A stretch of 64,000 nucleotides of DNA from Pomacea canaliculata (taxonomy: Eukaryota; Mollusca; Gastropoda; Architaenioglossa; Ampullariidae): NCBI RefSeq assembly GCF_003073045.1, contig NC_037590.1:13974311-14038310 (forward strand). Direction: 5' to 3'. Shown here one piece after another: positions 2,738-62,323 of the stretch. Position 1 is the first letter of the stretch; each line of letters begins with the position of its first letter. Below the pieces are notes generated by a model. It saw only the letters and a program-made list of their open reading frames with translations. It made no database searches and was not told the origin of the DNA. The translations under genes and the position numbers were made by a program.

Positions 2738-3655
2738 TCACCTCTTCAGCACGTCTTCTAGGGCTGCGATGTAGCTCTGCGCCATTTGCAATGTTTCGTA
2801 TTTCGATAACTTCCGGTTCCCTCCAAACGACGGAATGACGTCACGCAGCTGGTCGAAGGCGACGTTCATGCTCTGCATCCTCCTCCTCTCCCTGGCGTTG
2901 GCGGAGACTCGCCGCTTAACGAAGACGTCCTTGACCTCCTCCCCTCCGCTGTCCACCACCAGCAGCTGCTTCTTGAAAGTCGTCCTGAAGCACGAGCAGC
3001 AGCTGTAGTCGGGGGCGGAGCTGGGAGGATCTCCCTCGCCAATCTCGCAACGGCCAAGACAAGAGAGAGCGGGGGACCAAGACAGGATGCGCTGCGCCTT
3101 CGGGATCTGCAGTGGAGGACGCGAGCAGACGACGCCGGCGATGTGATGGTCGTGCTTTGCAGAGTCGTCAAGTGCTTTCCTGGCCAGACTTGGGGCCGAG
3201 GCGCACGGAGACAGATTTTCACCTGTTCGGAACTGCTTCTGCGTCCCAACGCCAAAGCAGACTGGGTCTGGAGAAAAGACCAGCCTCGGTCTGACGGTCC
3301 GAAGCTTGAGAGCGGGCTCCCCTGTCGAATCACGAATACCCGGATGCAGTCTGTCCTCGCAGTGTCCGGTGTCCTCGGCAGCGTGCTTTCGTTTGGTGGG
3401 GAACCCCAGTCTGCAAGTTTTCTGGCAGCTGCTGTAGGACTCATGCCACCAGTCTGGACGTCTTTCCTCTTCTGTCAGGCGACTTGCATCGGAACGAAGG
3501 GGGGATAAAACTCGGTGAGAGGAGGTGCAGGTCATAGCGGGGCTGTCAAGGGACGTGTACGTTAGTTGCGCCGAGTGCGTGCAGGCACCACTGTCCACAA
3601 CACGTTCATGCAGCAGCCCCGTGTTTTTGTTGACGGTACTGTCCTTTGCGCTCAT
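2738..3655 (-). CDS. ato: Atonal-family bHLH transcription factor
   Basis: This intronless frame encodes about 305 residues. The last 60 (about 246-305) form a basic helix-loop-helix domain: the basic region contains [10 protein letters not shown], helix 1 contains [12 protein letters not shown], and the loop and helix 2 contain [15 protein letters not shown]. The asparagine and ARERRRM of the basic region and the [11 protein letters not shown] block are hallmarks of the Atonal/Atoh1/Atoh7 group, and the match to Atoh1 is closest by eye. The protein ends directly after the domain, as in atonal orthologues. Family members heterodimerise with E-proteins (Daughterless/E12), bind E-boxes in the nucleus and specify sensory and neural precursors. 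I chose the ATG at 3655 because the frame above it has no ATG before a stop near 3740; an ATG near 3532 is an alternative. The N-terminal 240 residues are low in recognisable domains, which is normal for the family. Confidence 0.93.
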
Positions 3656-4096
3656 TGGTCCTTTTGTCCACCGATTGCAATACCAACTCTTTTTCTCCCT
3701 CCACTCAAAAAATGTCTTTTTTTTCTTCAAAAAATCCTTTTACTTCCGTTTTTGTTAAAAACGCAGAATTTGTTGACCATGAGGGTCCACTTAACACGGC
3801 TTTTAAATTTGAGAATTTTTTCTTCTTCTCAAAAAAGTTCTTGTGGTCTTTGTATTTTCTGGTCTTCTCACTTTTGTTGGAGAAAAGTAGGTGTTATCCA
3901 CAGAGCACGAAACAAATAACCTTATGTACTTCCTCCACGAACATAGTGCCGAAATATAAAATCAGAACTCTTAGTGACTGAAGGGAAGTACAAGACACGG
4001 GGGTTCCTAGTGTCTGGGGGCTCAGCTGTGGAACCACGAGGCGTCCACCACTGCCTGCAGACGGCGCTCCGCTCCTCCGGTCTGCGCGTCAGTCAG

Positions 4097-5308: not shown

Positions 5309-5418
<110 letters not shown>

Positions 5419-15735: not shown

Positions 15736-15835
<100 letters not shown>

Positions 15836-34352: not shown

Positions 34353-36818
34353 CTACTGTTGCGGTGATGACCCGGATCTGTTGACGTCACCGAGGGAATT
34401 TCTCTGCGATGGCGACACATTCGTTGCATTCGCAACCCGGTCAACAGGACCCTGAGACGAAAGTTGTCTTAGTACGGTCGCTACAGAGGCTTGCCCGAGG
34501 CTGTTTGTAACTCTTTTGACAGCCCTTTTCTGGGGGCCTGCTTGTAAGTATGTTTCGTATTTCTTCATGTCCATCACCACGTCCCGCAGGGCTTCGAGCT
34601 CTTTCCAGATAGGAGAACCCTCGACATGCAGGGGCATGATGGGAAACCGTGTGCGGAGGATACCGAGGTCCTTGATCTCTGGAAGTAAGATACGTACCCC
34701 TGAGGCCAACACCATTTGAACACGTCCCGCTCGGTCCAGAACGCCCATAGCACCTTTGATGGTGTCCGCAGGGTCGGCCCCGACTTCTTTGCCGGTGAAG
34801 AACTGTACGGGGGTTAGGTAGTATTTGTGACTGTTAGTTCCATTGAAAGCCCTTTCTTGTGTTCGCATTCCCGATCTTCCACCAGCTGTCACCGTCATGC
34901 CAAGCCCCGAACGGGCCGAGCCCTTGTACTCGAGCCCAAAAGGGTTCCACGACTGCAAAGGCGTCAGGAAGATTAATTCTAAGGGGATGGCGTAAGAATA
35001 TCGTTTCGTGACGATGCTGCAGACATTTCCTTTCTTGTCTTTCCTGCAGGACTGTATGGACATCGGTGCCACTCTTTCCTGAGTTGTCTCTGCAACGAAC
35101 AAGTTGCGGTCCGCGAATCCCCTATGGGAATCCGCCTCACCCATGGCCCCTGTTTCCTTGAGCTTGTACCACCTGTGGTAATACGCTACGTTGAGTGGCT
35201 TGTCATTCAACATGTTTACTTTTGGAATCCCGAACACATCATCCTTGATCATCGCTCCGTAGTTATCTTTGCCAGGTATCTGGGACATGATTTCGTCCAG
35301 AAGACTGTGCCTGAAGCTCTTGTCTTCACCATAGCGGTTGAGAGTAAACCGAGCTAATCGCGTTTTTTCGTATTTCTCAAACGTGTATTTGTTGGCAAGC
35401 CTCGAACCCAGATCGTCCACTGGCTTCAAGTCACTCATCTTGATGTCTCCGGAGACGGGATGACAGAGGATGCGGTAGTTCCACTGCGCAAACACCGGGA
35501 CGCCATCTTGGGTGACGTTGATAATGGTTCTCGGGAGGAAAGCGAGGTTCTCGCTGTTGCTTTTGTCGCCTGTGTAGGACATGAAGCGGATCTTTTCTTG
35601 GAGATCGAACCAACTTGAGGCGTCCAAGTGATGTCTTTCGCTGTCGAAAGGCTCGTCTAGGTTCTGGTCGACCGTCCAGGCGCCTTCCAGGTAGCAAAGC
35701 ACCGGCTTGAAGTACCGGCGATAATCGTGGACCGCGTGGTTACCATCTCTCCAGGCTTTGAACCAGTTTCGCATTTCATAAATCTGACACACAGAAAGTA
35801 TTAATAGATTATTAAATTCACAAAATGAAGTATGCTTTACTGACAGTCAAGAAAACTAGGTATTCTTAATATGACCTTTGCATAGTGTGAGATGATTCGA
35901 AACTAACAGACACCAAAAACTGAGGGTCATGAATATCTACTACTGTCTTTCTCCCCCACATATTTTTTTGACAAATTAGCCTTAATATAAACTAGTTTGT
36001 GAATTAGTTAACAACTTTAATATTTGGTTCTTAGTGGTGCATGATTTTGGTTGAATTCTCACCTGGTCGTTTAATTCCAAATGTTGCAGTACATCCGGTG
36101 GAACCTCTGGAAAAGGAATGTCCTCCGTAGCGTGGTATCGCGTGCTGTTGGTGACGGCCATGACCAGCTGGTAGTCGTTATGTCGCGTGCGGAAGTCGAT
36201 GCCGTTGAGGACTGCAGCAAACTCGCCCATTCCACAGGTGCGAATCAAGTCGGAGTGGTCATGCATAGCCGCCACAGACCCCGCAGTGTGTGTGGGTGTG
36301 TAGTAGGGTTTCGATCCGTCTCTGTTCAGACGCACCTGCACACGAAACAGAATGTTTCAGTCGGCTTTTTCAAGATTCGTCTGTTTATCTGAATGCGAGA
36401 CACATTCGAGCTGCTTAAAACAGGGCCGATGAACGATGAATAAATAAATAATATCGAAGAACTGGCCTTTTAAGGCAAAGTGATAATATCATCACATATA
36501 AATGGTAAACACGAATTTGCAGCTATAAATTTGCAGTGTGGTGACGAAAGAGAAATGATACACTAAAGAGATGATGATGACGATGATGATGATGACGATG
36601 ATTTGTCTGTGGGTTACCTGTTTTATGCCTGAATCTACTTCCGTGCGTGTCTTCTCCTCCACGTAGAGCTGCTGCAGCATCAGCTGACGACTGAGTGCTG
36701 AGGTCAAGGTCTCAAGTCTGCTCAAGCGGTCCACCGAGACCACCGGAAGCGGAGTAGCCATTGCCAAGATATGGTGGGAGAACGTGAGGGACAACACGAG
36801 GACGAGCCACGTGCACAT
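34353..36818 (-). CDS. Secreted protein of unknown family, three exons
   Basis: The exons are 36818-36618, 36335-36063 and 35783-34353. Every junction is GT-AG in phase 0 (donors GTAACC and GTGAGA; acceptors TGCAG and GTCAG), giving 67 + 91 + 476 = 634 residues and a TAG stop. The start ATG is followed by a clear signal peptide (MCTWLVLVLSLTFSHHILAMA; cleavage likely after AMA), so the product is probably secreted or enters the secretory pathway. There is no transmembrane helix further on. N-glycosylation sequons are present (for example NVT in exon 3, in TIINVTQDG, and NAT near the C-terminus). The middle is rich in aromatic residues (YEMRNWFKAWRDG; VFAQWNYRILCHP), and the last 60 residues are Ser/Asn/Gln-rich and probably disordered. 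The frame is intact. I do not recognise the family, and no catalytic motif is evident. Confidence 0.85.
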
Positions 36819-41480: not shown

Positions 41481-43688
41481 GTGTGCGGCATTCAGGATGC
41501 TTGTTATACGGTCTGCTTCATGTGCGCATGTTTCTCACGGAATTTTAATTCAAAATAGGAAAGTAAATGGGAGCACAGAAACAATGGCTTTACATGTTTG
41601 TCAACAGGCCTGGCCAGGCTTCACGAGTTTGATGCACTATGGCGACTATACAATAAACCATACAAACCCGCGCATCTTTATCCACATTTCTCTATTTAAT
41701 GGCACGCGTAATAAGTATTAATCAACATAGCTAATTTACCGGTGTGTGAGGACCTTTGTCTCTTCTATACCCATGCACGTGCACAAACACACGCAGAGCA
41801 ATGAGAGTAAGACTTTCCAATCACTGTCAAGTAATTTACAAAAAATAATTAAAAGAATAATGAAAAGAAACAACAAAAGACATACAAGATTATTATTTTG
41901 GTACTGTATGTGTGTTGTAAATGCCTTTAACTTAATACAATACGTTTCCTATATTTTTCTATTTTATTTCGAAAGCAAAGCAAATAAATATTTTTGCTGA
42001 GAGAGAAAGAGAGGCTTCAAAGAGTAAACACATTTGACAGTGTTTGCGATATATCTGTGATTGAGTGGGAGCAATTAGTGTTGTTCATTAGCACTAATCT
42101 CACACCATGCTTTCGCTAATTTTGCAGTGGTAGAATGCCATGGAACTTCTTTTTCATTGGCAGCGACATCGGTCTAGTTCCTTGCTGCTGCTGATGATGA
42201 CGATGATGGCGGCGGTGCCAGCCGCCCGGAGTGTCGATTGCGAATCATCAAAGCCTCTGAATTATGGTTTCGTTGCCAGTATTATCGCTAAGATTTCCTG
42301 CTGGGAAAAAAAGATGAATTCCCTGCTGTACAAGACTTCTTTCTGTTTAAGATAATTGAGATGGCGACAGTGGAGGTTGTTGTGGTGCGAAGCACGTTAA
42401 TGATTGTTACAACATAATATGCTCCATACCATATGCTGAAGATATTCTCACGTCAAGACTCAAACACAAAAGCAGGCTTGAAGCAGCCCTACATGATGTC
42501 ACCACCCCCCTCCTCTTCTCCTCCCACCTCTCTGTGGTCTGACGGCGTCTGGAGCCTAGCCCTGGCGGAACTGCTGAAGCATGACGCAATGGGTTGCACG
42601 TTGATGGAGTACAGATGAACTGCTGACCTTTGTCACGTGGCTTGTAACACGAATCTTTCTGTAGCGATGAAGGGAAGGGTAAAGAGGTGATCTTGATAGA
42701 GTGTAGTGTGTCGCTAGACAGAGTGTACGCGTGAGTTAGTGCATTAAAGCATCATCATTAAATTAAGTTTGGCAGTGTTTCATTTTGCTTTAACTTTTTT
42801 CAAGAGCTCTGTTTTTTGTGACATCTTTTTAATATTCAGCGTTGTATTTTAAACAACTTGTCACTTATTGTGATAAAAATACTCAACGAGAAACAAAGAA
42901 AAAAAAAATTTTTTTTAATTTAGAATTTTTTCGAAGTGATGAAACATATCTTGATTTCAAAATATCTAGCCTAAAAAAAAATATATACACTGACACACGC
43001 AAAGGCACATCAATTTACGAATAAATATGTATACAGTCATCCATCCTTAATAAATACTACTTATAGTTTACAAAATTATTTCAACGATGTTTCCATATCT
43101 TGTCACTACACACATTAAGAATACAATAACAAAATTCTACATTGCCACAACTGCGAGTGTTCAGAAAAAAGAAGTATGAACAATAGAGGTTATAGATCAA
43201 TAAAATTGTTTAATATTTTAGTAATTGAGGTCCTGTGAGGTAAACATTAATTACGAGGTATTCATAGAAGTAAAGATCAGCTGTTTACATCGTTTTCTTT
43301 TTGAATGATGAAAACCTTGTTTATGGCGACATCATCTGTTGCGTTGTTTAGAAACAATTATCGTCAAGGACCACTTCACCGGCATTCAGATGCTGAAGAT
43401 TTCCGGAAGGACACTTACGAGGTATAATGGATAAATTATTTTTAATTTTTAAGTGCTGTCACGTGACCTGGAGATCTACTGCACACCTTAACAGGTGTAG
43501 CGGGCACTGATAAAAGCTAATACACGAACATTTATGGTATAGTCCATGCCGTGACTTGGCAGCGGGTTTTTTTTTTTCAAAAAAGAGGCGATATATAATA
43601 ATTAAATATAGCAAGTGCCGGTCATTAGGGCGATTTATCTGTCAAACAAGTCAGGGGATATGTTGATGTAGGTCTGTAAACGAGACCG

Positions 43689-43697
43689 TATATTTAA
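43689..43697 (+). promoter_or_regulatory. TATA-like box of transporter copy 1
   Basis: TATATTTAA about 60 bp before the start codon. The surrounding 100 bp is conserved upstream of copy 2 (TATTTAAA at 51153-51160), so it is likely the core promoter inherited in the duplication. Confidence 0.45.
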
Positions 43698-43757
43698 GAT
43701 CTGACAAAGATAGTAACTCAGACACAAAAGAATAACAACAAAAGCAGTTTATGCGCT

Positions 43758-46700
43758 ATGTCGGTAGAAGAACAGAATACAGAGATGGATGAGAAGAAAA
43801 TCCACCAGAATGGCTTTGACAGCGAGGTTAACGTTAAGCCAATTAGTTGCATAGATCATGAGATGAACGTATTATCGAACGGCAAGAATTGTTCTCAGCA
43901 CGAACCAAAACATGGACATGGACCAAAGCATGGACACCACCATGGACCGAAACATGGACACCACCATGGACCAAAGCATGGGCACCATCATGGAGCGAAA
44001 CATGGACACCACAAGGGTCCAAAAGATGGACACAACAATTCAGACAAGAGGTCGTTTCTACAGCGCAATGCTTTCTTCATCACACTGTTACTTAACGGGA
44101 TGATAGATGGTCTGGGTTACTCAGTGAAGAGTCAGTACAGATATCGCTTCTTTCACTCCAAGTACGCACACGACCTCCGCAAGTACAATGTGACTAAGGA
44201 GTGTGGTGTGGACCTGCTGCCTGAAGTCCAAGCAAGTATAAGTGTTTATATAGCTATGACAATATGCTTCAATGTCTTACTTTGATTTTTAGTGCCTGAA
44301 AAACAAGAAACCTTTCGTCCTTCGAATCGATAAGGCATAAATACCAACACGAACATAGATTAATTTTCATATGGATGAGGTTTGCTTTTCTTTTTTATTT
44401 ATATTCTTGGAAATGTTTGTAATGAGACAAGTAGCGAAAATTTTTTGATTATTGTTAAATGTTTCCTCTTTGTGTCTTTTTTTGTTTGTTTTGTATTACT
44501 TGTCTGCATAGCTGTTTTTTTCCTTTCATTGTTTGTATTCTATATCTCTTGCTTGGGATTATGCTCCTTTGTCCTTCGTGAGCAGCTCTTGTTATAAGAG
44601 CAAACATTACATTTCATCACTCTTATAACACGTAGAAGTCGAAGTCCGTTTGCTTGCAATGATGAAGTTTATTCTTCTACAGTATTAACTATAATAGTTA
44701 CGCAGTTTTTAATTTTTGTGAACAAACAGGATATAAATAATTGGTCCTATGAAGATGTGGACGGTTATTTAAATATTTAATTAATAACGTGTAGCGTCTG
44801 TAGGTGACAATTTAAAATATCTCTCACTTTCCAAATAGCAGTTACTCAGTTAAGTATATGTTTTAAAGTTTTGTTGTTTGGAACATTATTTATGTAGCTA
44901 TAAATATAAATAAAAAATGTAAATGTAAAATAGAATTTGCAATTTAACTGTCACTAAATAAAAGCTGCTGTGTGCAATGAGTTGTAGATTTATGCCGTTT
45001 TCTTTATTTTATTAATACAAAACCGCCGGAAATACAGCCTGAAAAAGAGAGAAGCTGGTGTCGAAGATATCTAAATAGATGAGATGGAAAAGAAGTAAAT
45101 TCTTGCAATAATTGAACAAAGTAGTAACGGCATTTTCTAAGCTGAAAACATTGGCTAGAGATTGTCATAATTATAAACAGGGGAAGCAACCTGCCGCGCT
45201 CACTACAGAGCAACTCAGGTTGCTTCCCCTGTTTATACCCAAATTCATCCTGCTCTGCAAGACTGATTGCTTAAGTTATCAATGAAAGTAAGACAATTTT
45301 CACGAATATTTTGTTGTGTAGGAGATTGAGGATACCATCAGTCGTGAATCAGCTCAATGGAGTTTATACAACGAATACGTCACATTAGTCCCTCACATCC
45401 TGACCGCTCTGCTGATTGGCCTCAAGTCAGACCAGATGGGCCGTCGTTTTGTTTTCCTCTACCCTTTCTTGACAGCTATTGTGGACTACATTCTCCTGGC
45501 TGTAATCATCCGGTGAGTACATCCACGATATACACATCCCTGTATCATTTCAATAAAAATAACCAATCCTTTATGGTAGACAAGCACTTCAGCCTTCGTA
45601 ACAAACTTTAAACAACTGTAGGTAGAGAACCCGTACGCCTTCAAAATGTGCAATATAACGCCAAACAGATTTAGCACTTCTAATTAGGATACACGGCTAG
45701 ACAGTCAATATACATATATAAATATACATATTATAACTTTCTCCAGTTATGCCTATGTTGGTGTTTACATGTCTTGCAGATGTTTTCTTAATTTTTATCT
45801 CTAATGTTTTCCTAGGAATATGTCTTGAATAGTAGGCAGTGCAAGTTATTACATCAAAGTATGTTGATTTTAAAATATTTACTTAACATTTTTTTCTGGT
45901 GTTAAAATTCTTTTCAGATTGAATCTGCACTTCGGTTACACGCTCATAGGCGACTTTGTCAGGAGTGTATCCGGAGGAACAATAGGCATGCACTTGGCTG
46001 CCTACGCCGATCATCTCAGACACACATGGAAAGAAGAAGGAACCGGCAGATGACAACAAAATTCCGGGGAGGCAGCAAACTGCCAGAGAAAGCAAAAGAA
46101 CAAACTGATGACACCGAAGACGACTTCGACATGTCCAGAGAAAATCAGCGGACCTTCAAAATTGTACTCCTAAACGTTGCCCACAGTCTGTCGTCAAGCA
46201 TCATCTCATTTGTCACCGGCTATGTCATCCAGTACGCTGGCTTCTTTTACACTCTCATTATTTCTCTTGGCCTTAAATGTCTTCTTTTTGTTTTCGCATA
46301 TATCTTTATCACGGAGACAGGTCAGCAGAGGAAGAGTTCAGGATTTATCACTCCACTCAAGATCATCTTAAGGAGAACGAGAAATCCCAGAAATCGTCGC
46401 ACTCTTTTCCTCGTTAACTTTGCCGTCGTCTTCACGGTCGTGTCCTTCGTCGTTGAGGGCGAGGTTATGAGGACCTACCAGATGAGTCCGCCGTTTTGCA
46501 TGGACTCCGTGCAGTTGGGCTACTTGAGCAGCGAGTCTCGTCTGAAGGGCATCTTGACCATTCCTGTCTTGTGGATGTGGCGACGATTGGGTTTGATGGA
46601 GTCGACCATCGCTGCTGTTGGCCTCTACGCCGACATCGCTTCGACTCTGATGGTGGCAACTATACGGAAGATCTGGGTCTTTTTTGTAGGTGCGTGCCTT

Positions 46701-48536
46701 TATGTATATATGTGTGTGTGTGTGCTCTAGCGCGCGTCGGTAATTGCACTCGATGTTACACTGCATGCATGACTGAAGAGTTGAACAGACACCGTTTCGT
46801 GAGAACGCTATTTAATTGGTCCATTACGTTCACTAAATCTAATGCCGAGGTACAAAAGAAGGAATATAAGTATGATATACACATCAAATGTCACTAAAAT
46901 CTTTCCAAAATTTAGAGGAAACGACCACTAATTTTACACCAATATCCAACAATCACATAAAGTTTCCCTCCACGCTCTCAAAAGCGAGGAAACGACAAAA
47001 AATATTGAAAGTGTTCAAGAACGCGTATATCAGAACTGTTCATGGACATATTGTTTGTTAAGGGTTACAGCCAATGAGGAGGCTAGGACCACATACTAGT
47101 AAGGCGTATCTCTATACAAACTAATGTTATGGGTTTAGGGTTTAAAGGGATTCTCAAGGTTTGTTATAAGGCTGTGGTGACGGTCAAAACGTTGTAAAAA
47201 TTATGTTTAATTACGATTGCAGTGCACGAGAGCCATGCAGAAGAAATAAATGATTCACTTCTCACTTAATTACCACTCATTAGCACTATTTCGGTTGCCG
47301 ATGTTTATAAAAATCGAAAAAATCCAGTGAAATCGACCCTTGTATCCTTCCGCCGAGTAACCACGATAGCTTCTGGCACAGTTATCATTCTGGAGGCGCG
47401 GAAGTGGGCTTTCGAAGTCTTCGTGACAAGATGGTGGAGATAACAATAGCTGGAAGAGGGGCTAGTCTCGGCATCTGCAAACTCCGAGTTCTTTAATATT
47501 TCTTTTTATTTGATTTTCTGTCATGGGTAGTTTTTTAGTTCGTGTCGTCTTTGTTTAATTTCAGCTCCCATTGTAGCCATTCCTGGATCGCTGTCATCAT
47601 CCATGACAAAAGCCATCTCGTCTAGGCTGGTTGGCCGTCAAGCCCTGGGTAAGTTGTTTTTTCAGCAAATCCAGTTTTTTTTAATATAAAGTGGTTCTTT
47701 TGAACCCAGCGACCCTGTAAACCTTGTATTCATCTTGTTTTATCAAACATTTCAAGCACTTTCTCTTTACACACCATCTCTTTATCCACAGTTGCATGTG
47801 GCTGCAGAGAAGAAATTTAAGGATATATGTATATGTCAACAGTTTTACACATCTTAAAACAGATAAAAGAGCTGTACTTTTGTAACAGTTTTCTTTAAAG
47901 TAAAAGTAATTTTTGTTGACCTGTGCTGTCTCTAGCATCTTCGTTTGCCGTGATGTTGGCCATTGACACTGTGTTTGCGTTTGCCGGAGGACAGGCGGGT
48001 AACTACCTTTACCAAAGTTTCTTAAGAACACTGCCGACTGCTCCCTTCTACCTGGCCTCTGCCGCCCTGGCAGTGTCTGCGGTCTTGTATACGTGAGTAC
48101 AGCTTTTAGTCTTAAATACCGTCTTCGTCGCCATTATTGTCTTGTGTAAAAAAGTCGTGTATAGCTCCCTCTGAAGCATGGATGTTTTAAGTGGTCGGGT
48201 AACACGTTTCCCCCATTTCCTTTAGAATATTTGTATGTTTGTGCGGATTTATTATATTTCTACGTCCATTTAAATTATTTCGACTAGAGGTGAGCTGTAC
48301 AAGTGTTGTTATCTCCCTTTAAGAAGCTACCATCGATAAACATTTTTTGTTTATGTACATAATGACAAGTGCCTCATCATCATCATCATCATCATCGTCA
48401 TCATCATTTCGTCGTCGTCGTAAAAGTTTTTGTTAAAAAAAATCTTTTCTTTCTTTTTTTTTTGTCCAGACTTGAAACCATTTTACAGCGCGTGTACGCC
48501 AAGATAGACTCAAGCAAAGCTGAGCTACATGCATAA
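43758..48536 (+). CDS. SLC46-like MFS transporter, copy 1, His-rich N-terminus
   Basis: The six exons are 43758-44231, 45322-45512, 45918-46689, 47565-47648, 47936-48092 and 48470-48536 (TAA), about 580 residues. Intron 1 is GC-AG (donor GCAAGT); the others are GT-AG. SLC46 (proton-coupled folate transporter family) is recognised from the MFS loop GLKSDQMGRR after transmembrane segment 2, the block PPFCMDSVQLGYLSSESRLKG in the second half, and exon 4 PGSLSSSMTKAISSRLVGRQ. Roughly twelve membrane segments are visible; the first is at about residues 104-125. Residues 49-93 are a His-rich extension. Exon 3 changes frame: an extra C in TACGCCGATC relative to copies 2 and 3, then base losses near the GGGGAGG run. 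The start could also be the ATG at 43785 (MDEKK), which matches copy 2. The family moves organic anions and nutrients with protons at plasma or lysosomal membranes; the substrate here is unknown. Confidence 0.85.
43902..44036 (+). repeat. In-frame 24-bp repeat encoding GPKHGHHH units
   Basis: Four 8-residue units, GPKHGHHH three times and a variant GAKHGHHK, lie between a leading EPKHGH and a trailing GPKDGH. Copy 2 has only one such full unit (51364-51424), so copy 1 gained, or copy 2 lost, three units (72 bp). About 40% of residues are His, arranged in HGH/HHH groups. Confidence 0.9.
45172..45237. repeat. Perfect 22-bp inverted repeat in intron 1 of copy 1
   Basis: The arms 45172-45193 and 45216-45237 are exact reverse complements (core AGGGGAAGCAACCTG), with a 22-nt loop. 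The corresponding intron of copy 2 has diverged here and lacks it. It lies in a transcribed intron, so the RNA would form a strong hairpin. Confidence 0.9.
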
Positions 48537-51255
48537 CCACACGGTTTCATTCCACAAAGAAAAACATAATAATTGTTTCTTATTTAAACGAGAAGATATA
48601 CTGCCATGTTTATCCTGCTTATTTAGGTGCTAGACAAGCATTTATACAATATATAAATATGCTATACAAGGCATGAATGTACACTCTTATATATGTACAT
48701 AATATATTCATATTATTTATTAATGTACTAAATAAGACAAAACATTAACTTGAGCAATGGAATAAGTTGATATTTTCATCTGTGATTTCTCAATCGTGCC
48801 AAATATGTAAAATGAGCTAATTGTGATATACTCCTAGTTACCATCACATTTAAATTTTAAAAAAAAATTGCTTAGAGTATTTTTATATTTATTTTTATAA
48901 ACAGGTATACTGTCATAGTATGTATAATACACGAAAGATTAAGAATTCAGAGAAAAATATCCACGTCTGTAGGTGTGCTTGCGTCTTTCAGATGCCATGA
49001 GCAGGAGGCTGTGTGAGCGTACAAACATGAGTTGTCACGTGGTATCATTTGTGAGATTGTGTTATGTGTAATATGTGGTTCACATAACGGATAAAAAAAT
49101 GCACGAGTGAGTGCTTTAATTTTTGTGTGTCATGTTGGTGTACGCGTTATTAGTCCTCCTTCATGTACATAATTTTCTCATGAAATTTTAATTCAAAATA
49201 GGAAAGTAAAAAGCAGCAAAGAAAGATGGCTACACATGTTTGTCAAATTATGTACAAATTTCTCTATATTATGCGCGCTTATTGAATAAAATGTTTATAA
49301 ACCAATTTGCCTGATGTGTGAGGACATTTGTCTCTGTGTGCGCGCGCACAAATATACGCATATATGTATATAGACAAACACACACTTTGTAGAGTGATGA
49401 GAGAAAAGAGAGCTTTTCCACATAAGGTAAACTAGAAAAAAGGTAAAACTCAAACAAAATAATTGAAACAAAAGAACAATGAAAAGAAATAATAAAAAAT
49501 ATAAAAGAATTTATTTTAATACTTTGTAGGTGTTGCATATGCCTAATAAAGTATTACACTACGTTTTCCTATACTTTCATTTTTTCACGTCTTAAGCGAG
49601 GCAAATGAACATTTTTATTGAGAGAGAAAGACAGGCTGCAAAGAGGGAACACATTTGTGTTTGGGATATGTGTATGATTGAGTGAGACCAATTAGTGTCG
49701 TTCATTAGCCCTAATCTGATGCCGTTGTAGAATGCCACGTGTGGCGTCGCCAAATACAATTGGCTCCATTGAACTTCTCTTTCATTGGCAGCGACATCGG
49801 TCTAGTTCCTTGCTGAGGAAAAAGAGAATGAGAATAAGCATACGGCTCTCTTGCTTACTCTGAATAATGTTGACGACGACGACGACAGTGGAGGTTTTTG
49901 TGGTGCGAAGCCCGGTTAATGATTGTTACAACATAACATGCTCCATACCATATGCTGAAGATATTCTGACGTCAAGACTCAAACACAAAAGCAGGCTTGA
50001 AGCAGCCTGCATGATGTCACCCGAAGTACCACTCCCCCTCCTCTTCTCCTCCCACCTCTCTGGTCTGACGGCGCCTGGACCTAGCCCTGGCGGAACTGCT
50101 GAAGCATGACGCAATGGGTGGCACGTTGATGGAGTAGAGATGAACTGCTGACCTTTGTCACGTGGTTTGGAACACGGAACTTTCTGCAGCGACAGGGGGG
50201 AAGGAGTGAAGTGGTAAAGAGGTGAGCGTATGAGAGTGTAGTGTGTTAATTTTCTGTAATACTTGACAGTGTGTGCGCGTGAGTGAGTATATAAAAGTCC
50301 TCCTCATCAATATTTGGCAGCGTGCCAAATTATTTTACAATTTTAGGAGTTGTGTTTTTGTGACATCTTTTTAATATTCAGCGTTGTATTTTTACATAAC
50401 TCGACATCTCTTGTTATCAAATATTCATAAAGTAAACGAGAAAAAAGATATTCAACTAATTTTAAAATAAAAAAAATTTTTTAAAAGCCGGAAAGAATAT
50501 TCTGTTGTCAATATATCTAGTCTGAAAGGAAAAATAATTACACACTGACATCTAATATTGCCGAAATCCATCTATTCATCCCTCCATCCATCATGAACGT
50601 GACTTATAAACAATCAAATACGAGTCTGCATAAAAAGAAGCATACATACATAACCCTAAGATAAACAAGACTTTAATATTTTATTAGCTTTTTATTTGTT
50701 TACGTGCCGTGAGGTAAACATTATTTACGATGTATAGAGAAAAGTCGAAATCAACCTTTTTCATCGTCCTCTTTTTTTTCATCGATGAAGAACCTATTTT
50801 TTGCGATAACGTCTTTAGCGTGTTGTTCAAAAACAATTGTCAAGGACCACTTCACCGGCATCCACAGTTGCTCAAGATTCCCGGAAGCACACTTAGCGAG
50901 GTATCATGGATAAATTATTTAATTCTTCAGTGCTGTCACGTGCTTAAGGTCTACTGCACATCTTACAAAGATGTGGCGCGAACTGATAAAAATAATACAC
51001 GAACGATTGGTCTATGCCGTGATTTGGCAGATTTCTTTTTAAAAAAGAGGCAGTATATAATAATAAAATATAGTAGGTGTCAGTCATTGGGCTGATTTGC
51101 CCATTCAACAAGTCAGTGGATATCTTGATGTACGGCTGTGAAGGAGACCGTGTATTTAAAGATCAGAAGAAAACAATACGACATTGCGTCAGCAAAAAAC
51201 AAAAAGCAGTTAACGCACAGGGTCATTAGAGGAACAGCAACAAGTGAATATAAAA

Positions 51256-54200
51256 ATGGATGACAAGCAAATCTACCAGAATGCCTTTGACAGCGAGGTT
51301 ACCATTAAGCCAATTAATCGCGAAGATCATGAGATGAACGGGTTATCAAACGGAAGGAATTACGAACCAAAACATGGACATGGGCCGAAACATGGACACC
51401 ACAAGGGTCCAAACGATGGACACAGCAATTCAGACAAGAGGTCGTTTCTACAGCGCAATGCTTTCTTCATCACACTGTTACTTAACGGAATGATAGATGG
51501 TCTTGGCCATTCAGTGAAGAGTCAGTACAGATATCGCTTCTTTCACTCCAAGTACGCACACGACCTCCGCAAGTACAATGTGACCAAGGAGTGTGGTGTG
51601 GACCTGCTGCCTGAAGTCCAAGCAAGTATAAGTGTTTATATAGCTATGACAATAATATGCTTCAATCTCTTGCTTTGATTTTTAGTGCCCTGAAAAACAA
51701 GAAACCTTTCGTCCTTCGATTTGATAAGGCATAAATACCAACACGAACATAAATTAATTTTTATTTATGAGGTTCGCTTTTCTTTTATATTTATATCACT
51801 TGTCTGAAAACTGAACTTGTCTAACTGAGAGAATGCTCTTTGCGAGCTATGAGAGATACAGTGATACAGGTGATAACGAAGCGCTCCTAAGAAGATGTGG
51901 AGTTAAATAGCTAATTAATAATGTATATCATCTGGAGGTGACCGTTTAAAATATCTCTAACTTCGAAAATAGCAGTCTTTAATTTATGTATACGTGATCA
52001 AGTTTTATTGCTGTTTGGAACATTATTTATTCACATAGATGTAAATAAATTTTGCCTTATAACTGTCATTGAACAAAAGCTGATGAGTGCAATGAGTTGT
52101 AGATAATAAGACGAATGTACACTTACCTTGTATACGCACGACGTATTGCACACACACACACAACACTCGACTTGTAGGTGAATCGAATCGAAGAGGCTCA
52201 AGTTCAGAGCAATGTCACTGAGAGTCATAAAGAAGATGGCGGACGAAGACCGTTGTTTTTTCCCAGTTACTCTGGCCATTAGAGAAAAACGTGCTTTTCT
52301 TTTACATGACGTCTTTTTCTGCTTCAAGTGACGTGGAACAAATGACGCACACAAGATGTCAGACACAAGACACCAGTCGTACACGAGACAATACGAGACC
52401 TGCCACAACTCATGACATAGATTTATGCCGGCAAAAGAGAGGAGCTGATGTTGGGGGTATCCAAATAGAAGACATGGAAGAGTTGTAAATTCTTGTAACA
52501 CTTGAACAAGGTATGAACGGTTTTAGCATCAGAGAAACACCTTGTTCCTAGCACTTGTTGGATCTAAAGCTCTGGACACTCTTCAGGCACGTCCATGCTG
52601 CAGGTATCGTAAGTAAAGCCTTGAAATAGTAGAAGACTGAGCACACCATAATTCGTGAGATATGCAGTTGAGCGTTTTTTCTTCAGGTGACTTGTTGACG
52701 ACTAAATACCGTGAAAGATGAAGGATCCCACAGCCAAAAAGGCAGCGAACGTAGAAGGACACGGTATTTCCAGAGCAGAATTCAGAAATCCTAACATGCA
52801 GTTCTTATCTCCCCTGATGACTTAGTATCCATTTCTGTAGAGCAGGATGAGTTGAGGGTGGGATGGGATTTATTTCCATAGGAACAAGTGGGTCTTGAAT
52901 CCCTGAGCTATTCCGTAATTAAGCGCGTTAATCCCTGGGCAAGATTATTATTATGACTATCTTTAGGCGACGTGTCTATTATTAATCAACATTTTTAACA
53001 TACACCGCAATAGTCACGAATATTCTGTTGTGTAGGAGATTGAGGATACCATCAGTCGTGAATCGGCTCAATGGAGTTTGTACAACGAATACGTCACGTT
53101 AGTCCCTCACATCCTGACCGCTCTGCTGATTGGCCTCAAGTCAGACCAGATGGGCCGTCGTTTTGTTTTCCTCTACCCTTTCTTTACAGCTTTGTGGACT
53201 ACATTCTCATGGCTGTAATCATCCGGTAAGTATCCATAGACAGATATACACGTCCCTGTTTTGTGTCTCTGTATTATTTAAACAAAAATAATCGATCCCT
53301 TATGATAGACAAGCACTCAGCCTTCGTAACAAACTTCAACATCTGCAAGTAGAGAACCCCTCAAAAATGTGCAATATAACGCCAGAACAGACTTAGCACA
53401 TCTAACCAAGATACACAAGATAATCAAAAAAGTATCATTATATATGTAAGTATATATCAATAGACTCATGTTAACATGTCCTGCAAATGTTTTCTTGCTA
53501 GGTATCTTTAATGTTTTCCTGAGGGTAATATATGTTTACCTTGAATAATAGACAGTGGAAGTTATTAAACCAAAGTACTTTCCATTAAAATATTTTTTCT
53601 GGTGTCAAAATTATTTTCAGATTGAATCTTCACTTCGGTTACACGCTCATAGGCGACTTTATCAGGAGTGTATCCGGAGGAACAATAGGCATGCACTTGG
53701 CTGCCTACGCGATCATCTCAGACACACATGGAAAGAAGAAGGAACCGGCAGATGACAACAAAGTATCCGGGAGGGCAGCAAACTGCCAGAGAAAGCAAAA
53801 GAACAAGCTGATGACACCGAGGACGACTTCGACATGTCCAGAGAAAATCAGCGGACCTTCAAAATTGTCTCCTAAACGTGGCCCACAGTCTGTCGTCCAG
53901 CATCATCTCATTTGTCACCGGCTATGTCATCCAGTACGCTGGTTTCTTTTACACTCTCATTATTTCTCTTGGTCTTAAATGTCTTCTTTTTGTTTTCGCA
54001 TATGTCTTTATCACGGAGACAGGTCAGCAGAGGAAGAGTTCAGGATTTATCACTCCACTCAAGATCATCTTAAGGAGAACGAGAAATCCCAGAAATCGTC
54101 GCTCTCTTTTCCTCGTCAACTTTGCCGTCGTGTTCACCGTCTTGTCCTTTGTCACTGAGGGCGAGGTGATGAAGACCTACCAGATGAGTCCGCCGTTTTG

Positions 54201-55840
54201 CATGGACTCCGTGCAGCTGGGCTACTTGCACAGCGAGTCTCGTCTGAAGGGCATCTTGACCATTCCTGTCTTGTGGATGTGGCGACGACTGGGTTTGATG
54301 GAGTCGACCATCGCTGCTGTTGGCCTCTACGCTGACATCGCTTCGACTCTGATGTTGGCAACTATTCGGAAGATCTGGGTCTTTTTTGTAGGTGCGTGCC
54401 TGTGTGTGTGTGTATGTCCGCGCGCATATACCCGTAAAGGGTGATTAAAATTTTCCCAGCATTTACGTAATATGACCACTAATCTTCCACGGGTATTCAA
54501 ACAATTACAAAAAGTTATCTAAAGCGAGGAAAATAAAAAACGAAACAAAACAAAAAACATTGAAGGTAGAAGCGAAGACTGTACATGGAGACTACTCTTG
54601 TGAAGGTTACAGCCGATGGGAAAGCTAGGACCACATGTTAATAAAGCATATCTGTGTACATACGTTACGTTAGGAATTTAGTCTCTTTCAGTACAATGTT
54701 TGTAGGCGAGTGTCCCAAAAAAGGAAAGAGGGATGTATGCATTTATGTAAATCGTTGGGTTTTTTTCCTTCTCTATTGTTGTTAGCTAAGCTCTTCAGTT
54801 TGTCGTATTTCTTTAATTTCAGCTCCCATTGTAGCCATTCCTGGATCGCTGTCATCATCCATGACAAAAGCCATCTCGTCACGGCTGGTTGGCCGTCAAG
54901 CCTGGGCAAGTTGTATTTCTTAAGAAAATGCAGTTTTTAAATATAAAGTGTTGATTCTTTCACCATCAGCAACCCTTTAAACCTTGCGTTCATCGTGTTT
55001 TATTAAAATTGTTGAAAGCATTTCTAGCACTTTAAAGACCACGTTAGAACGATCACATCATTTCTTTATTTGCATGTCTGCAGAAAAGAAATTAGTTTAT
55101 ATATATATATATATGTCTGTACAGTTTTTCATAGCTTAAAACAAAATTTAGAGATGATTTTTGTAACAATGTTTCTTAAAAGTAAAAAAGTAATTTTTGT
55201 TGACCTGTACTGTCTCTAGCATCTTCGTTTGCCGTGATGTTGGCCATTGACACTGTGTTTGCATTTGCCGGAGGACAGGCGGGTAACTACCTTTACCAAA
55301 ATTTCTTGAAAACACTGCCGACTGCTCCCTTCTACCTGGCCGCTGCCACCCTAGCAGTGTCTGCAGCCATGTACTCGTAAGTACAGTCTTTGTCTTATAG
55401 TCTTTACTGTCGTCATTGCTTACAACAGTCGTGTATAGCTTCTATTGAAACTTATGGTTTTTGGAAGTAGGGGCATTTTCCCTGATATACTTTAGAATAT
55501 TTGTATATTTGTGCGTATTTATTATATTTCTGCTTTTATTTAAGTAACTCTCACTAGGTGTACAAATATTAGTTATCTCCCTTTAACAATTTAAAGTCAA
55601 TAAACAATTTTACGTACACGAGTGCCTTTGGATATGAGAACTATTTGTGCAGCCAAGCCCTTAATAATCAGGTACTGCTCGAAAATCTGTTAGTGTGCAA
55701 TTCTGAAAGCCTTTTTGTTAATAAATTTCATTGACAGATTTTTTTAAAAAATCATTCGTTTTTTTTTGTCCAGACTTGAAACCATTTTACAGCACGCATA
55801 CGCCAAGACAGACTCACGCAAAGCTGAGCTACATGCATAA
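51256..55840 (+). CDS. SLC46-like MFS transporter, copy 2
   Basis: The exons are 51256-51621, 53036-53225, 53621-54391, 54823-54905, 55220-55376 and 55774-55840 (TAA), the same architecture as copy 1. The start is the ATG of MDDKQIYQN, matching MDEKKIHQN in copy 1. The His-rich extension is short (one full GPKHGHHK unit). Introns 1 and 4 have GC donors (GCAAGT); intron 4 is GTAAGT in copy 1. Frame changes relative to copies 1 and 3 are: one T lost in exon 2 (GCTTTGTGG for GCTTTTGTGG), one G lost in exon 3 near GGGAGGG, one A lost in exon 3 (ATTGTCTCC for ATTGTACTCC), and one C lost in exon 4 (GCCTGG for GCCCTGG). Most lie in homopolymers. It is either a recent pseudogene or an intact gene with consensus errors. 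The amino-acid sequence is otherwise well preserved, which favours the second. Confidence 0.8.
52108..52420. other. Copy-2-specific insertion in intron 1
   Basis: In unit A, CAATGAGTTGTAGATTTATGCC is continuous in sense (near 44976-44996). In unit B the same sequence is split by about 310 bp that includes a CA tract. No terminal repeats or Pol III boxes are clear. The origin is unknown. Confidence 0.5.
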
Positions 55841-56460
55841 CCACAAGGTTCCACTGCCTAAAGAAAAACATAATAATTGTTTCTTATTTAAACGGGGAGA
55901 GAGATATACTGCCATAGTTATCCTGCTTATTAAGGTGCTAGACAAGCATTTATGTTAAGCGAGCATTTATCACAATATATGTATATGCTAAACAAGGCTT
56001 GAATATATATACATGTTTCCTCTATATTAATGTACTAGAAAATAAAAAAATTATTGTGAGCAATGTAAATGTCCATTTTGTGCACTTGCGATTTCTTAAT
56101 CGTGCCAAATATGTGAAATGAGCTAATCTTATAAGTTCTTTGCATTTAAAATACGTCATTGCATTTAAAATTTCAACAAAACAAATTCTTGAGAGTATTT
56201 TTCATGCTATTTTTAAACAGGTATTTTGTTATCGTTTTTAAAATACAGGAAAGACTAAGAATTCAGAAAAATGTTTCCGCTTTTGCGGGTGTGCTTTGTC
56301 CTGCCAACGTATAAAGGAGGTTTGTGATTATGCAATCATAAGTTGTGAACGTGGAACAATTTGGAGATTATGTTACGCATATTTGGGCTTCAAATAAAGA
56401 ATAAAATATTCAATGAATGCTTTGATTTGTTCGTGTGTGTGATTCTGGTGTCTACGATAC

Positions 56461-57802
56461 AAACAGCACTCCTTTTCGCAGCATTTTGCGTGTGAACGCT
56501 TGTGTGTCTCCCTTGAGAATATAATCTGTTTGTTCGTCTAAAAGACAACCTCAACAAAAAAATGTGGGTGTGGGTGGTTAGGGTATAACTAGTGGACTTA
56601 CTCCTCTTAGAAACAACAAGAATCCACATCCTTTGGAAGTGTTTTTTCTGGTTAACTTTCTGCATGTCTACCTCATTTTCTTTAACGTCCCTGTCAACTA
56701 TAAACTCTGACCTGACCTCTTCAAGGTTTATTTTATCTACATGAACGCATCAAGTAGACGCAAGATAATTGTTGACCTTCCAACCCCTTAACAACGGATG
56801 AGGAGTGATGTCTGTGTGTGCGAAACGCCTTAAGGTGCACGTCAGTCATCGCTATCGACATCAGCAAGAGCATCAACACTGCGTGTGACTCAGCGAAAAG
56901 ATTTATCATCTTTCTAGGTACCAACAGACTTTTACTGAGTCCTCGGTTAGTGGAACTGGGGACAAAGCACGAAAATAAGTCTATCATTCATTTCAAGAAT
57001 GGATACAAATTGAAATCTTTACTTCTTCAGTATAAAAATGTCACTTTTCGTTTCCTTGACGTTTTCTTTTTTAACACTTTGGCCAGAAACTATTACATAC
57101 ACATAAAAATTACATACACATATACACATAATCTACAAAGAGTCTTTCTTCCTAGACAGAAGTGACGACGACAACGATGATGATGATGTCTTACAGCCGA
57201 TAATCGGAAGGACTGCCAGTCAATACCTTAACCTAACTCACCTCCGTGATTCAGACGCACATGAACCGCGAATAATTTGACACATTTATTTATTTATTTT
57301 TTTTTTGTGTTATAAATTGTACAAGTGGTAAAACATTAGTCGGAATGTGTCTTTAAGCTCTTCATACAACTATTAACATTAATTATTTTTTGCCAATGAT
57401 CAGTTCTCGCAAATGGGGTTTTTCCCCTGTGTTTTTACATAAAACGTGTGTTTTTTTATTTCTTAAGCCTTGTGTGTGAGGAAAGATAATAAAGGGTCAT
57501 GGAGGCATATGATCCTGTACAGTTACAGCAGATGATCATGCACTGATAGCTTCATATCTTCAAGGGTTGTACATCTTTCCACTTGCATCTATGAATCTCA
57601 AGGACAGGCACGTGAAAATATGTGACAGCTGCATCGAGGCTAGGTTTGAATTTGCAAACGTTTGCTATTGCTATTCTGTAGTCGAGAACACTGTCCATAA
57701 AATGTCTTGACAAACCAACAACGCGTATTTGTGAATGTAAATAGAAAATGTTCAATCAGTTAAGCCTTTTTACCCAAAGATACTACTACTACTACTACTA
57801 CT

Positions 57803-57842
<40 letters not shown>

Positions 57843-58677
57843 GCAGCAACAGCAACAACAACACGTAACTTAAGTAGGGCGCTGCCACAACATTCGGGTT
57901 ATTATTTTTTGAAGCATTAATCAATTGTATAAACAACACAAAGCCACAATTTTACATCTTATGCCACAGTGAGAGCTACAGGTAATATGGAACAGCAGCT
58001 CGGTTGAACTCCAAAACTTTTAGTGCATTAACTTTTTTCTTTACTTCCCACCATGTCTACAATGCATTTTTGGTTTACCTGTTCAGTGTTAATTTTTGCA
58101 TGTTCTTCCCATCAATAATATTTTAATATTTAATATTTTATATGTTTATTATTAGTTAAAGATAGCTTGTAGTTAACGTCTCTCTCTCGGCGTTTTCTGT
58201 GTTCATATTTTGTTCTCTGTCCAGAAGGTAGTTGCTGTTCAAGACCACTTCAATGGTACAGAAAATTGTTCGTACAGATAGTGTGATTCAGAGCACACAT
58301 TTTAGTATAGTTTAGTCCTTTTGCACTGCATCACCTGTGACCATGAGAGATAGCATTTGAGTTGGGTGGGGTTGTTCAGAGTGACATCGCACACGACGAT
58401 TTTCTTTTTAAAATATGTGTTATATAATAATGCCATTCAGCATGCTGTAGTCATTATACTAGTGCTCCAGCAAGAAGGTTCCTAAATATTGTGAAATAAG
58501 ACTTTCAGACGGGTGGAACATTATTATACATAAGAACTTTACATGACGGGCTACTTGTGATCAAAGACAAAAATAATTTCTTTTATCAGTTGTAACCATA
58601 GAAGCGGTTTCGAATTGACCACGGTGAACTATTCAATCCTTGTCAACACAAAGTGCCACACCCAGAAATTTCTAATA
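56461..58677. other. Spacer between transporter copies 2 and 3
   Basis: No gene is supported. It contains an ACT-then-AAC microsatellite at 57778-57862 and AT-rich DNA. The last few hundred bases are the promoter side of copy 3, with no clear TATA box. Confidence 0.45.
57778..57862. repeat. (ACT)n(AAC)n microsatellite
   Basis: About eight ACT triplets are followed by about 20 AAC/CAG-type triplets. Confidence 0.93.
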
Positions 58678-61600
58678 ATGGAAAAGGCTGGGAATAACGT
58701 TGATACCTTTACAACAAAGAAACAATTCAGTTACGGAAATTATGCGAATCACTGGACACCAAGTCTTTCAAAGAATACAACTCGCCCTAGCCCGGACTAT
58801 GTACGGCATGATCAGTCAAAGAATGAACACCAAGCGTGAGCTAAAGAATGGACATGATCATGGTCATCACAACAGATCATTCCTGCAGAAAAACGCATTC
58901 TTCATCACAATGCTGCTGAACAGCATGATAGATAATCTGGGCAATACTGCAAGGACACAGTACCGCTACGAGTTCTTTGAGTCCCAGTTCGCCCACGAGC
59001 TTCAAGAGTTCAACGTGTCCACGGAGTGTTCGGAAAGCCGTCATCCCGAAGTCAACGCAAGTAGAAGTGTTTATGTGATCATGGCCAATCTTTAACACCA
59101 TTTATTCAGCCCACAGTTTGTACTAGAAACCTTAGTAGTGAGTATAGACATTATAGAAACATTTGGACGACTTCGTCTACAAAATCGAAGCACGACTTCA
59201 GTTTTAGTATGATGTTCCTTCCGCATGTAAACGTACTTGTCTTTTTTTTTAGTCTGAAATCTGAAGATTTTGTTGGGTCTGGGAGTGGTGACAGTAATAG
59301 GTTTGGTAGAAAACTTAGGATCGTCATGGAAAAGCTGTCCCTAGTGTACATTTTTGTCTATCTTTTAAATTTCTGACTTCCAAGCGTTTGCGTTAATGGT
59401 AATGTTCATGTTTAGTGAGGTTTGACCGATCCTTGAATTTTCTGCCTTCTCACTTTACTCTATGATGGTTTAGTCGGCATCATCATGGGATAATCCTTAC
59501 AAATTTTTGTATTGTGCTTACCTAATGTTTTAAAAAAAAAATGCAACGTATGTATTCGGTGTCATTTGATAAGCCATTGCAAAGGCCACACGGAAATACG
59601 GAATATTTCTGATCAGATGCAAAGGTAAAAGAGACCAGTACCTCATCCTGTTACGATGAGTCCTTTGTTCCTTAACCAAAGTTAATCTTTGGGAAACATA
59701 TTCGTAGTCATACAGACGTTCTTAATGAGAGCATAATCATGAACATCTTTAGGTTACATGACTATGGACATCAACATCTTCTGCAGGAGATTGAGAATAC
59801 CATCAGTCGTGAGACGGCTCAGTGGGCCTTATACAGCGATTACGTCACCATTGTACCTCAAATCTTGACAGCTTTGGTAATGGGCCTCAAATCGGACCAG
59901 ATTGGTCGTCGCTTTGTCTTCCTCTACCCTATCTTCACATCTTTTGTGGACTTCAGTATCTTAGCTGTAACCATCGAGTGAGTACACTTCGTGAGATTTA
60001 CTTCCCCACAATCAGCAAATTGAAAGTGTTTGTGTTTATTATTGAAAAAATCTTCAGGTTCAGATTTAGAAGATGCAACTATTAGGTTAGTCGCTTTATA
60101 CCCGCTGAATAATACATGTGGGTTGTCAAACAAGATTTCGCGGATAAGGCATTTCAGTCATTATTTGCGGGTAGCAGATTTACCCATATGGGAATGCTAA
60201 GCAAACTGGAGAAAATATGTTTCATAAATATGAACAAAATCAGTAGCTACCAACGGTAGGGGACAAAGTTCATTGACCAACCAATCAGTATTTAAAGCTG
60301 TTCTTACATCATTTTGAAATATAACAATCTTTCTTTTAGAGCATGCAGCACATTTTGTTTGCCACTGAAATCTTTTTCAGGCTGAAACTGCACTTTGGCT
60401 TGACACTCGTAGGTGACTTCATGAAAGCTTGTCGGGAGGAGCATCAGCCATGCATTTTGCTGCTTATGCTATCATCTCCGACACACACGGAAAGAAAAGA
60501 GAAGAGGATGGGACAGCAAAAAGCCTGACGAGACCAGCAAAATACTTGATAAGCATGGAAAAGAAGATGATGATTAGCGACAACGACCTGGACGTGACTC
60601 GCGAGAAACAACGAACCTTCAAAATAGTTCTCCTTCATATTGGAAATGAATTGGCTTCCGGTTTAGTCTTGTTTGTTACTGGCTACGTCATCGAGAGTGC
60701 TGGCTTCTTCTACACCGCGTGCATCACCCTCGGGCTAAAGTTTCTTCTTTTCATTTTCGCTTTCGTCTTCATTACTGAAACAGGTGAGCAGAAGAAGAGT
60801 CCAGGCTTCATCGCGCCTCTCAGAACACTCTTGGAGACCACGAAGAATCCTAGAAATTTCTGCACCCTTCTCCTCGTCAATATGGCGATCGTGTTCCTGG
60901 TCGTGTCGCGGATTGCCGAAAAGGACGTCATGACGATCTACCAGATGAGTCCACCGTTTTGTATGGACTCCGTGCATCTGGGCTACCTGTCCAGCGAGAC
61001 TCGTCTCAAAGGCATCTTCGCCATTCCTGTCCTGTGGCTGCAGCGACGACTGCACTTCATGGAGTCCACCATCGCTGCTGTGGGGATGTACTCTGACGCC
61101 GCTTCAAACTTTGTGCTAGCAATTATTCGTCAAAGCTGGGTCTTTTTTGTAGGTATGTGCTCTAAACTTGGGATGTTTAGCTTGAATGTGTGTTTATTTT
61201 GTGTGTGTGTGTGTGCGTGCAATGTGCGAATGTCTGTGCTTGTGTAGTATCTTAGCAGCAGTTCCTGTTAGTTTTCATGTTTCATTTATCTCTTTTACGT
61301 TTCAAATTAGCGTTTATAATGCTTTCTGGACATCGTAAGATCCTTGGTCCTTGTGTTTCCTTTCATATATTCTTATGGACATTTAAATCACCAGGTTTAT
61401 TTTTTTCAGTCCCTATTGTAGCTATTCCTGGTGCGCTGTCATCATCAATGACAAAGGCCATAACGACACGGCTGGTGGGACGTCAAGCACTCGGTAAAGT
61501 TCGATCAAAAAACAAAACTAAAATAAGAAAACAAAAAGCAATTTGCAGTTGTAAATGAATTTTTTAAGAACTCTCATTGTATTATTGTTTTTCTATTTTT

Positions 61601-62323
61601 ATTTATTTTTTTTGTTCTATCAAGAACATCACATTTTTTCTCATGTTATCGAAACATTAATAAATATATGTAGAACTCTTGTCTGCAGATAAAATCAAAC
61701 TTAAGTAATGCAGATCACATTTGGGAAGTATGTTTATTTCGCACTTGCAGGTTGATGGAAAAATACAATTTAAAAATCATATCGGGTTCATTATTTCATA
61801 TTTCAAAGATTTACCAAAATTTGACAAAGGCGTCTTTAACTACATTTTTGGAATTTTATTATTACTGATAACATCTAACTGTTTTCACAAACTAAACTTT
61901 TTTTTTTTGTTTTTGACTTTTGTTTTGTGTGTGTGTGTGGGGGGGACCGTGAGTAGCGTCCACGTTTGCCTTGATACTGGTTGTTGAAGAACTGTTTTCA
62001 TTTGGAGGAGCACAGGCTGGAAACTACCTTTACCAACATTTTGTAGACACTCTGCCAACAGCACCCTTCTACCTAGCATCATCTACGTTTGTAGTATCAG
62101 CAGTCTTGTACACGTAAGTGCATACCTTGTTACAAATCTTATTGAAATCATCGTCTTCATGAAAGCTACCATTCTTTTTGAACAGATTTTAACATTTACA
62201 ATAGACTTACTGGTGTCGCATTCTTTGTGCAGAGCCGAAACCATGTTGCAGCGCAGGTATGTGACGACAGACGCTCAAAGGGAAGTAAATGTGGTTCCAG
62301 CCCTAAAACAAAATAATACCTGA
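58678..62323 (+). CDS. SLC46-like MFS transporter, copy 3 (older paralogue)
   Basis: The exons are about 58678-59056, 59787-59977, 60381-61152, 61410-61493, 61957-62113 and 62233-62323 (TGA). Lengths of exons 2, 3, 4 and 5 (191, 772, 84 and 157) equal those of copy 1, and intron 1 is again GC-AG. It keeps GLKSDQIGRRF, PPFCMDSVHLGYLSSETRLKG and PGALSSSMTKAITTRLVGRQ. Exon 6 is longer, giving a different C-terminal tail. The N-terminus is uncertain: ATG 58678 (MEKAGNNVD) leads to a stop just before the conserved part, while ATG 58742 is in frame with NGHDHGHHNRSFLQKN; one indel probably separates them. Exon 3 has lost one base in AAAGCTTGTCGGG (TTT expected). The His patch is short (HDHGHHN). 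The substrate is unknown. Confidence 0.82.

Follow-up and report, generated by a model that had tools for sequence, protein, structure and literature searches.

Results

The window, by which we mean the whole analysed stretch of 64,000 nucleotides from Pomacea canaliculata, contains at 43758-62323 three paralogous genes that lie head to tail in one orientation and have a common six-exon layout. Copy 1 spans 43758-48536, copy 2 spans 51256-55840 and copy 3 spans approximately 58808-62323. A preliminary description had placed three head-to-tail SLC46-like paralogues in this region; their orientation, layout and coordinates are all confirmed here. The features are as follows.

43758..44231, plus strand: copy 1 exon 1, with the N-terminal tail, TM1 and the first outer loop, which contains N-V-T and Cys; a GC donor (gcaagt) is next
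43905..44048, plus strand: copy 1 His-rich array, PKHGHG, three PKHGHHHG, AKHGHHKG, PKDGHNNS and DK
45322..45512, plus strand: copy 1 exon 2, with the SDQMGRR motif
45918..46689, plus strand: copy 1 exon 3, with two frame-change places
47565..47648, plus strand: copy 1 exon 4; donor gtaagt from 47649
47936..48092, plus strand: copy 1 exon 5
48470..48536, plus strand: copy 1 exon 6, including the stop
51256..51621, plus strand: copy 2 exon 1; a GC donor is next
51367..51432, plus strand: copy 2 short His-rich stretch, PKHGHG PKHGHHKG PNDGHSNS
53036..53225, plus strand: copy 2 exon 2, with one frame-change place
53621..54391, plus strand: copy 2 exon 3, with two frame-change places
54823..54905, plus strand: copy 2 exon 4, one base shorter than in copies 1 and 3; a GC donor is next
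55220..55376, plus strand: copy 2 exon 5
55774..55840, plus strand: copy 2 exon 6, including the stop
58808..59056, plus strand: copy 3 exon 1; the putative start is one of several in-frame ATGs; a GC donor is next
58838..58873, plus strand: copy 3 His patch, ELKNGHDHGHHN
59787..59977, plus strand: copy 3 exon 2
60381..61152, plus strand: copy 3 exon 3, with one frame-change place
61410..61493, plus strand: copy 3 exon 4
61957..62113, plus strand: copy 3 exon 5
62233..62323, plus strand: copy 3 exon 6, including the stop

With the ends of exon 4 and of copy 2 exon 6 moved by one base, all junctions are GT-AG or GC-AG. The donor of intron 1 is GC (gcaagt) in all three copies (44232, 51622 and 59057) in the reading that keeps the frame, and intron 4 of copy 2 has a GC donor as well. 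An ATG-started open frame in good context lies at 58678-58839, out of step with the His patch of copy 3; its ATG at 58678 could be the true start of copy 3, placed behind one further frame change.

Several other features of the window were recorded. Within the duplicated flank, two similar open frames on the minus strand (42407-42751 and 49926-50303) precede copy 1 and copy 2, respectively. Also on the minus strand are an unbroken stop-to-stop frame of 497 codons at 34353-35846, with no Pfam match, and a frame with a helix-loop-helix domain at 2738-3739 (PF00010, E 4.9e-20). Perfect or nearly perfect microsatellites occur at 1451-1588 (CAGA, 34.5 copies), 5309-5416 (TAT, 36 copies) and 15736-15834 (TAT, 33.3 copies).

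Family identity

PDB was searched with copy 1, copy 3 and a profile of all three proteins, copy 2 being represented within the profile only. Up to E 1, the only match in each case is the chicken proton-coupled folate transporter, PCFT (7bc6), with E-values of 1.7e-11, 9.6e-11 and 5.3e-13, respectively; for copies 1 and 3 the alignment begins around TM2 and takes in the greater part of the carrier. The SLC46-like assignment made earlier is thus supported. In Pfam, MFS_1 (PF07690) is matched by copy 3 at 40.9 bits, above the cut-off of 33.4, and by copy 1 at 26.7 bits, below it; up to E 0.01 this is the sole Pfam match of the two proteins, and ZIP or ZnT carrier domains are absent from them. Copy 3 also has 11 weak NCBIfam matches, 10 of them of Tet-type MFS; they are far below the cut-off and reflect likeness at the superfamily level only.

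Shorter motifs agree with the assignment. The Asp-x-x-Gly-Arg-Arg loop between TM2 and TM3 reads SDQMGRR or SDQIGRR, aligned to SDSVGRR of PCFT, and copy 2 also has SDQMGRR. All three copies have a sequon (NVT/NVS) followed by Cys between TM1 and TM2, in a loop assigned as loop 1 by its position because the PDB alignment begins downstream of it. A Cys is also found in all of them at the position of outer loop 4, where PPFC is aligned to SPLC of PCFT. A simple hydropathy scan gives only 8 strong segments in each protein, against the twelve transmembrane helices of the family. Identity to copy 3 is 62% for both copy 1 and copy 2. Taken together, the data support three tandem carriers of the SLC46 family within the major facilitator superfamily.

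When the three proteins were compared with the whole window by tblastn (E up to 1), only these three genes were matched, apart from a weak match at 56606-56782 (E 0.064 and 0.075) that might have indicated a further SLC46 copy and was taken as chance. Pattern matches to the alignment numbered 122 in GTDB genomes and 101 in viral contigs, with none confirmed in either; these collections are not meant for animals and are uninformative on rarity.

Along with the likeness to PCFT (SLC46A1), i.e., the match found for copies 1 and 3, the GRR loop motif, the loop 1 sequon and the Cys of loops 1 and 4, there are differences at functional positions. With the human numbers tentatively mapped onto chicken PCFT, Glu185 corresponds to Asn, Asn and His in copies 1, 2 and 3, His281 to Phe, Phe and Arg, and Asp156 to Gly in all three; the copy 2 residues were taken from its alignment with copy 1. 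His281 of PCFT functions in proton sensing. A part in proton coupling has been proposed for Glu185, and a structural importance for Asp156 (PMC4794783, in part). Since the counterparts of all three residues differ, proton-coupled folate transport is not to be assumed for these carriers.

His-rich N-terminal tail

Each copy has a His-rich stretch a short distance upstream of TM1, in frame with it and, like it, within exon 1. The tail therefore needs no splice, and the refutation proposed earlier, by RNA-seq on the splicing of exon 1 to exon 2, is weak. GPKHGHHH units had been described in both copies 1 and 2; this is correct for copy 1, while copy 2 reads PKHGHG-PKHGHHKG-PNDGHSNS and lacks HGHHHG. 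The short patch reported for copy 3 as HDHGHHN is indeed present before TM1, with the actual reading ELKNGHDHGHHN.

Histidine accounts for 21 of 97 tail residues in copy 1, 7 of 61 in copy 2 and 4 of 22 in copy 3. The excess over the rest of the protein has binomial P values of 1.9e-4 for copy 2, 6.3e-4 for copy 3 and 1.3e-17 for copy 1, the last being overstated because residues within a repeat are not independent. As a control, all six frames of the window were scanned, and 18 groups with at least 6 His per 20 residues were found among the matches listed; only two of these are the tails of copies 1 and 2 (43881 and 51364). The densest listed group after the copy 1 tail (11/20) has 10/20 His at 48366 and belongs to a simple repeat within one of the introns of copy 1. 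We conclude that His-dense frames come from simple repeats, and that the location in a coding exon is what distinguishes the tails.

Tandem Repeats Finder reports a 24-bp period with 4.9 copies at 43917-44033. HGHHHG units occur in copy 1 only, which has three 24-bp units more than copy 2; this is most simply explained by slippage of the 24-bp unit, with a gain in copy 1 or a loss in copy 2. Units 1-3, which encode the same peptide, differ at four sites, and all four differences are synonymous (P 0.001-0.005); this test is unfair, as the units were selected for their identical peptide, and every other compared pair of full-length units contains replacement changes. In the array units common to copies 1 and 2, replacement changes spare every His. 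Each of the 7 His in the copy 2 tail is matched by His in copy 1, and three His columns before TM1 are common to all copies, though dS between copies 1 and 3 is about 1.

AlphaFold was applied to exon 1 of copy 1 alone and returned residues 1-96 without structure and a helix at 97-118 (mean pLDDT 49.7, i.e., low confidence), which suggests a disordered and flexible tail. In PCFT the N- and C-termini are cytosolic and the glycosylation sites are in outer loop 1 (PMC3799626, in part), and a disulfide joins two outer-loop cysteines (PMC4794783, in part). Since the sequon and Cys of loop 1 and the Cys of loop 4 match PCFT, the tail is predicted by homology to lie on the cytosolic side.

Selection

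Outside the tail and with frame-change places excluded (438 codons), the comparison of copy 1 with copy 2 yields 32 synonymous and 19 replacement changes (dS 0.111, dN 0.019, dN/dS 0.17). Against copy 3, dN/dS is 0.20 and 0.23 at dS of about 1. The carrier body is thus held by purifying selection (dN/dS 0.17-0.23). Within exon 1, TM1 and loop 1 (62 codons) have a pN/pS of 0.007/0.122, the tail units common to copies 1 and 2 (23 codons) one of 0.054/0.073, and the pre-tail stretch (42 codons, the first unit being counted twice) one of 0.115/0.183. In these small samples the tail and pre-tail look less constrained than TM1.

In the comparison of 42365-49141 with 49883-56451, i.e., copy 1 with copy 2, the compared introns and flanks (intron 1 in part) have JC distances of 0.20-0.54, against a synonymous divergence of 0.11. 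Gene conversion favouring exons may be the reason for the excess.

Frame changes

In the assembly, the reading frame of every copy is interrupted. There are seven frame-change places, which were absent from the preliminary description. Copy 1 accounts for two of them and copy 3 for one, all in exon 3; of the four in copy 2, one is in exon 2, two are in exon 3 and one, deduced from the exon length, is in exon 4. Exon 3 has 772, 771 and 772 bases in copies 1, 2 and 3, while the phases require 770 or 773; exon 2 of copy 2 is one base short relative to copies 1 and 3. Some of the places are within single-base runs and some are outside such runs. One place in exon 3 coincides in copies 1 and 2, with different letters; it could be inherited or could reflect two separate losses.

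Discussion

We tentatively propose that the locus encodes three SLC46 carriers whose cytosolic His tail is a putative metal-binding antenna or sensor, and assign this reading a probability of roughly 0.4. The N-terminus would form a flexible tail in the cytosol, with a His patch that immediately precedes TM1 and is lengthened in copy 1. Facing the cytosol, the tail would be a sensor or antenna of low affinity for Cu, Zn or Ni, and the carrier would move a metal or a metal-linked solute. A role of this kind has been suggested for the His-rich cytosolic loops of zinc carriers. The ZIP and ZnT/CDF proteins are likewise membrane carriers with His-rich flexible segments; however, they belong to another carrier family, and copies 1 and 3 match MFS_1 alone in Pfam. 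Within the SLC46 family, SLC46A3 is lysosomal, its raising or removal alters copper levels, and its authors propose it as a possible copper carrier into lysosomes (PMC7804329, in part). This likeness is by description, and the word "histidine" is absent from the main text of that paper. A His-rich tail is also not described for PCFT in the available parts of PMC3799626 and PMC4794783, and a literature search pairing SLC46, PCFT or MFS with histidine-rich gave no title on a His-rich SLC46 tail. A cytosolic metal-binding tail would fit the copper proposal for SLC46A3, and for this reason we rank the antenna narrowly ahead of drift.

Drift nevertheless has to be taken seriously, tentative as it is: the tail may be a tolerated low-complexity segment, in which a 24-bp minisatellite grew by slippage in copy 1, with no selected role beyond solubility. 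The 24-bp period and the three units separating copies 1 and 2 are what slippage would leave, the relaxed pN/pS in the tail and pre-tail agrees with it, and so does the absence of tail structure in the fold of the lone sequence. The relaxed constraint also counts against an antenna, as do the wide differences in tail length between the copies and the two His upstream of the array in copy 1 that have no counterpart in copy 2. Drift does not readily account for the diverged copy 3 keeping three His columns before TM1, or for the fact that no replacement change affects a His in the array units present in both copy 1 and copy 2.

The frame changes also weigh against the antenna reading, since the genes may be dead. 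If the changes are real, the three genes are in decay and represent recent pseudogenes, and the tail is without present function. Seven places over three copies, one of them coinciding in copies 1 and 2 and possibly inherited, would agree with decay; the window also contains two other stop-to-stop frames, of 497 and 333 codons, that are unbroken, which indicates that the error rate is not uniformly high. However, each change involves only one or two bases, every junction has kept GT-AG or GC-AG, and purifying selection is combined with exon stretches that read in the family frame without any stop codon, so that leftover assembly errors are likelier than old pseudogenes. We regard decay as unlikely.

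The earlier idea of a pH sensor has become weaker. His side chains titrate near neutral pH and the related PCFT is proton-coupled, so a cytosolic pH sensor or buffer of a proton-driven carrier is conceivable; but a tail that homology places in the cytosol is an unlikely sensor of outside acid, and the cytosolic pH itself is nearly constant. Moreover, where PCFT has Glu185 and His281, Asn and Phe are found in both copy 1 and copy 2, and His and Arg in copy 3. This explanation seems to us very improbable.

Returning to the metal antenna, it is tempting to extend it to a branch of invertebrate SLC46 carriers, in which a cytosolic His patch developed into a metal-responsive antenna gating or feeding a carrier that handles copper or zinc, with the copies tuned by repeat number; we offer this as a speculation that is probably wrong. 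Should drift be the explanation, the locus would be an ordinary case of coding repeat expansion. Were the tail to bind metal and change transport, the three copies would constitute a natural series of tail lengths, and the role in metal handling proposed for the SLC46 family on the basis of SLC46A3 (PMC7804329, in part) would be strengthened.
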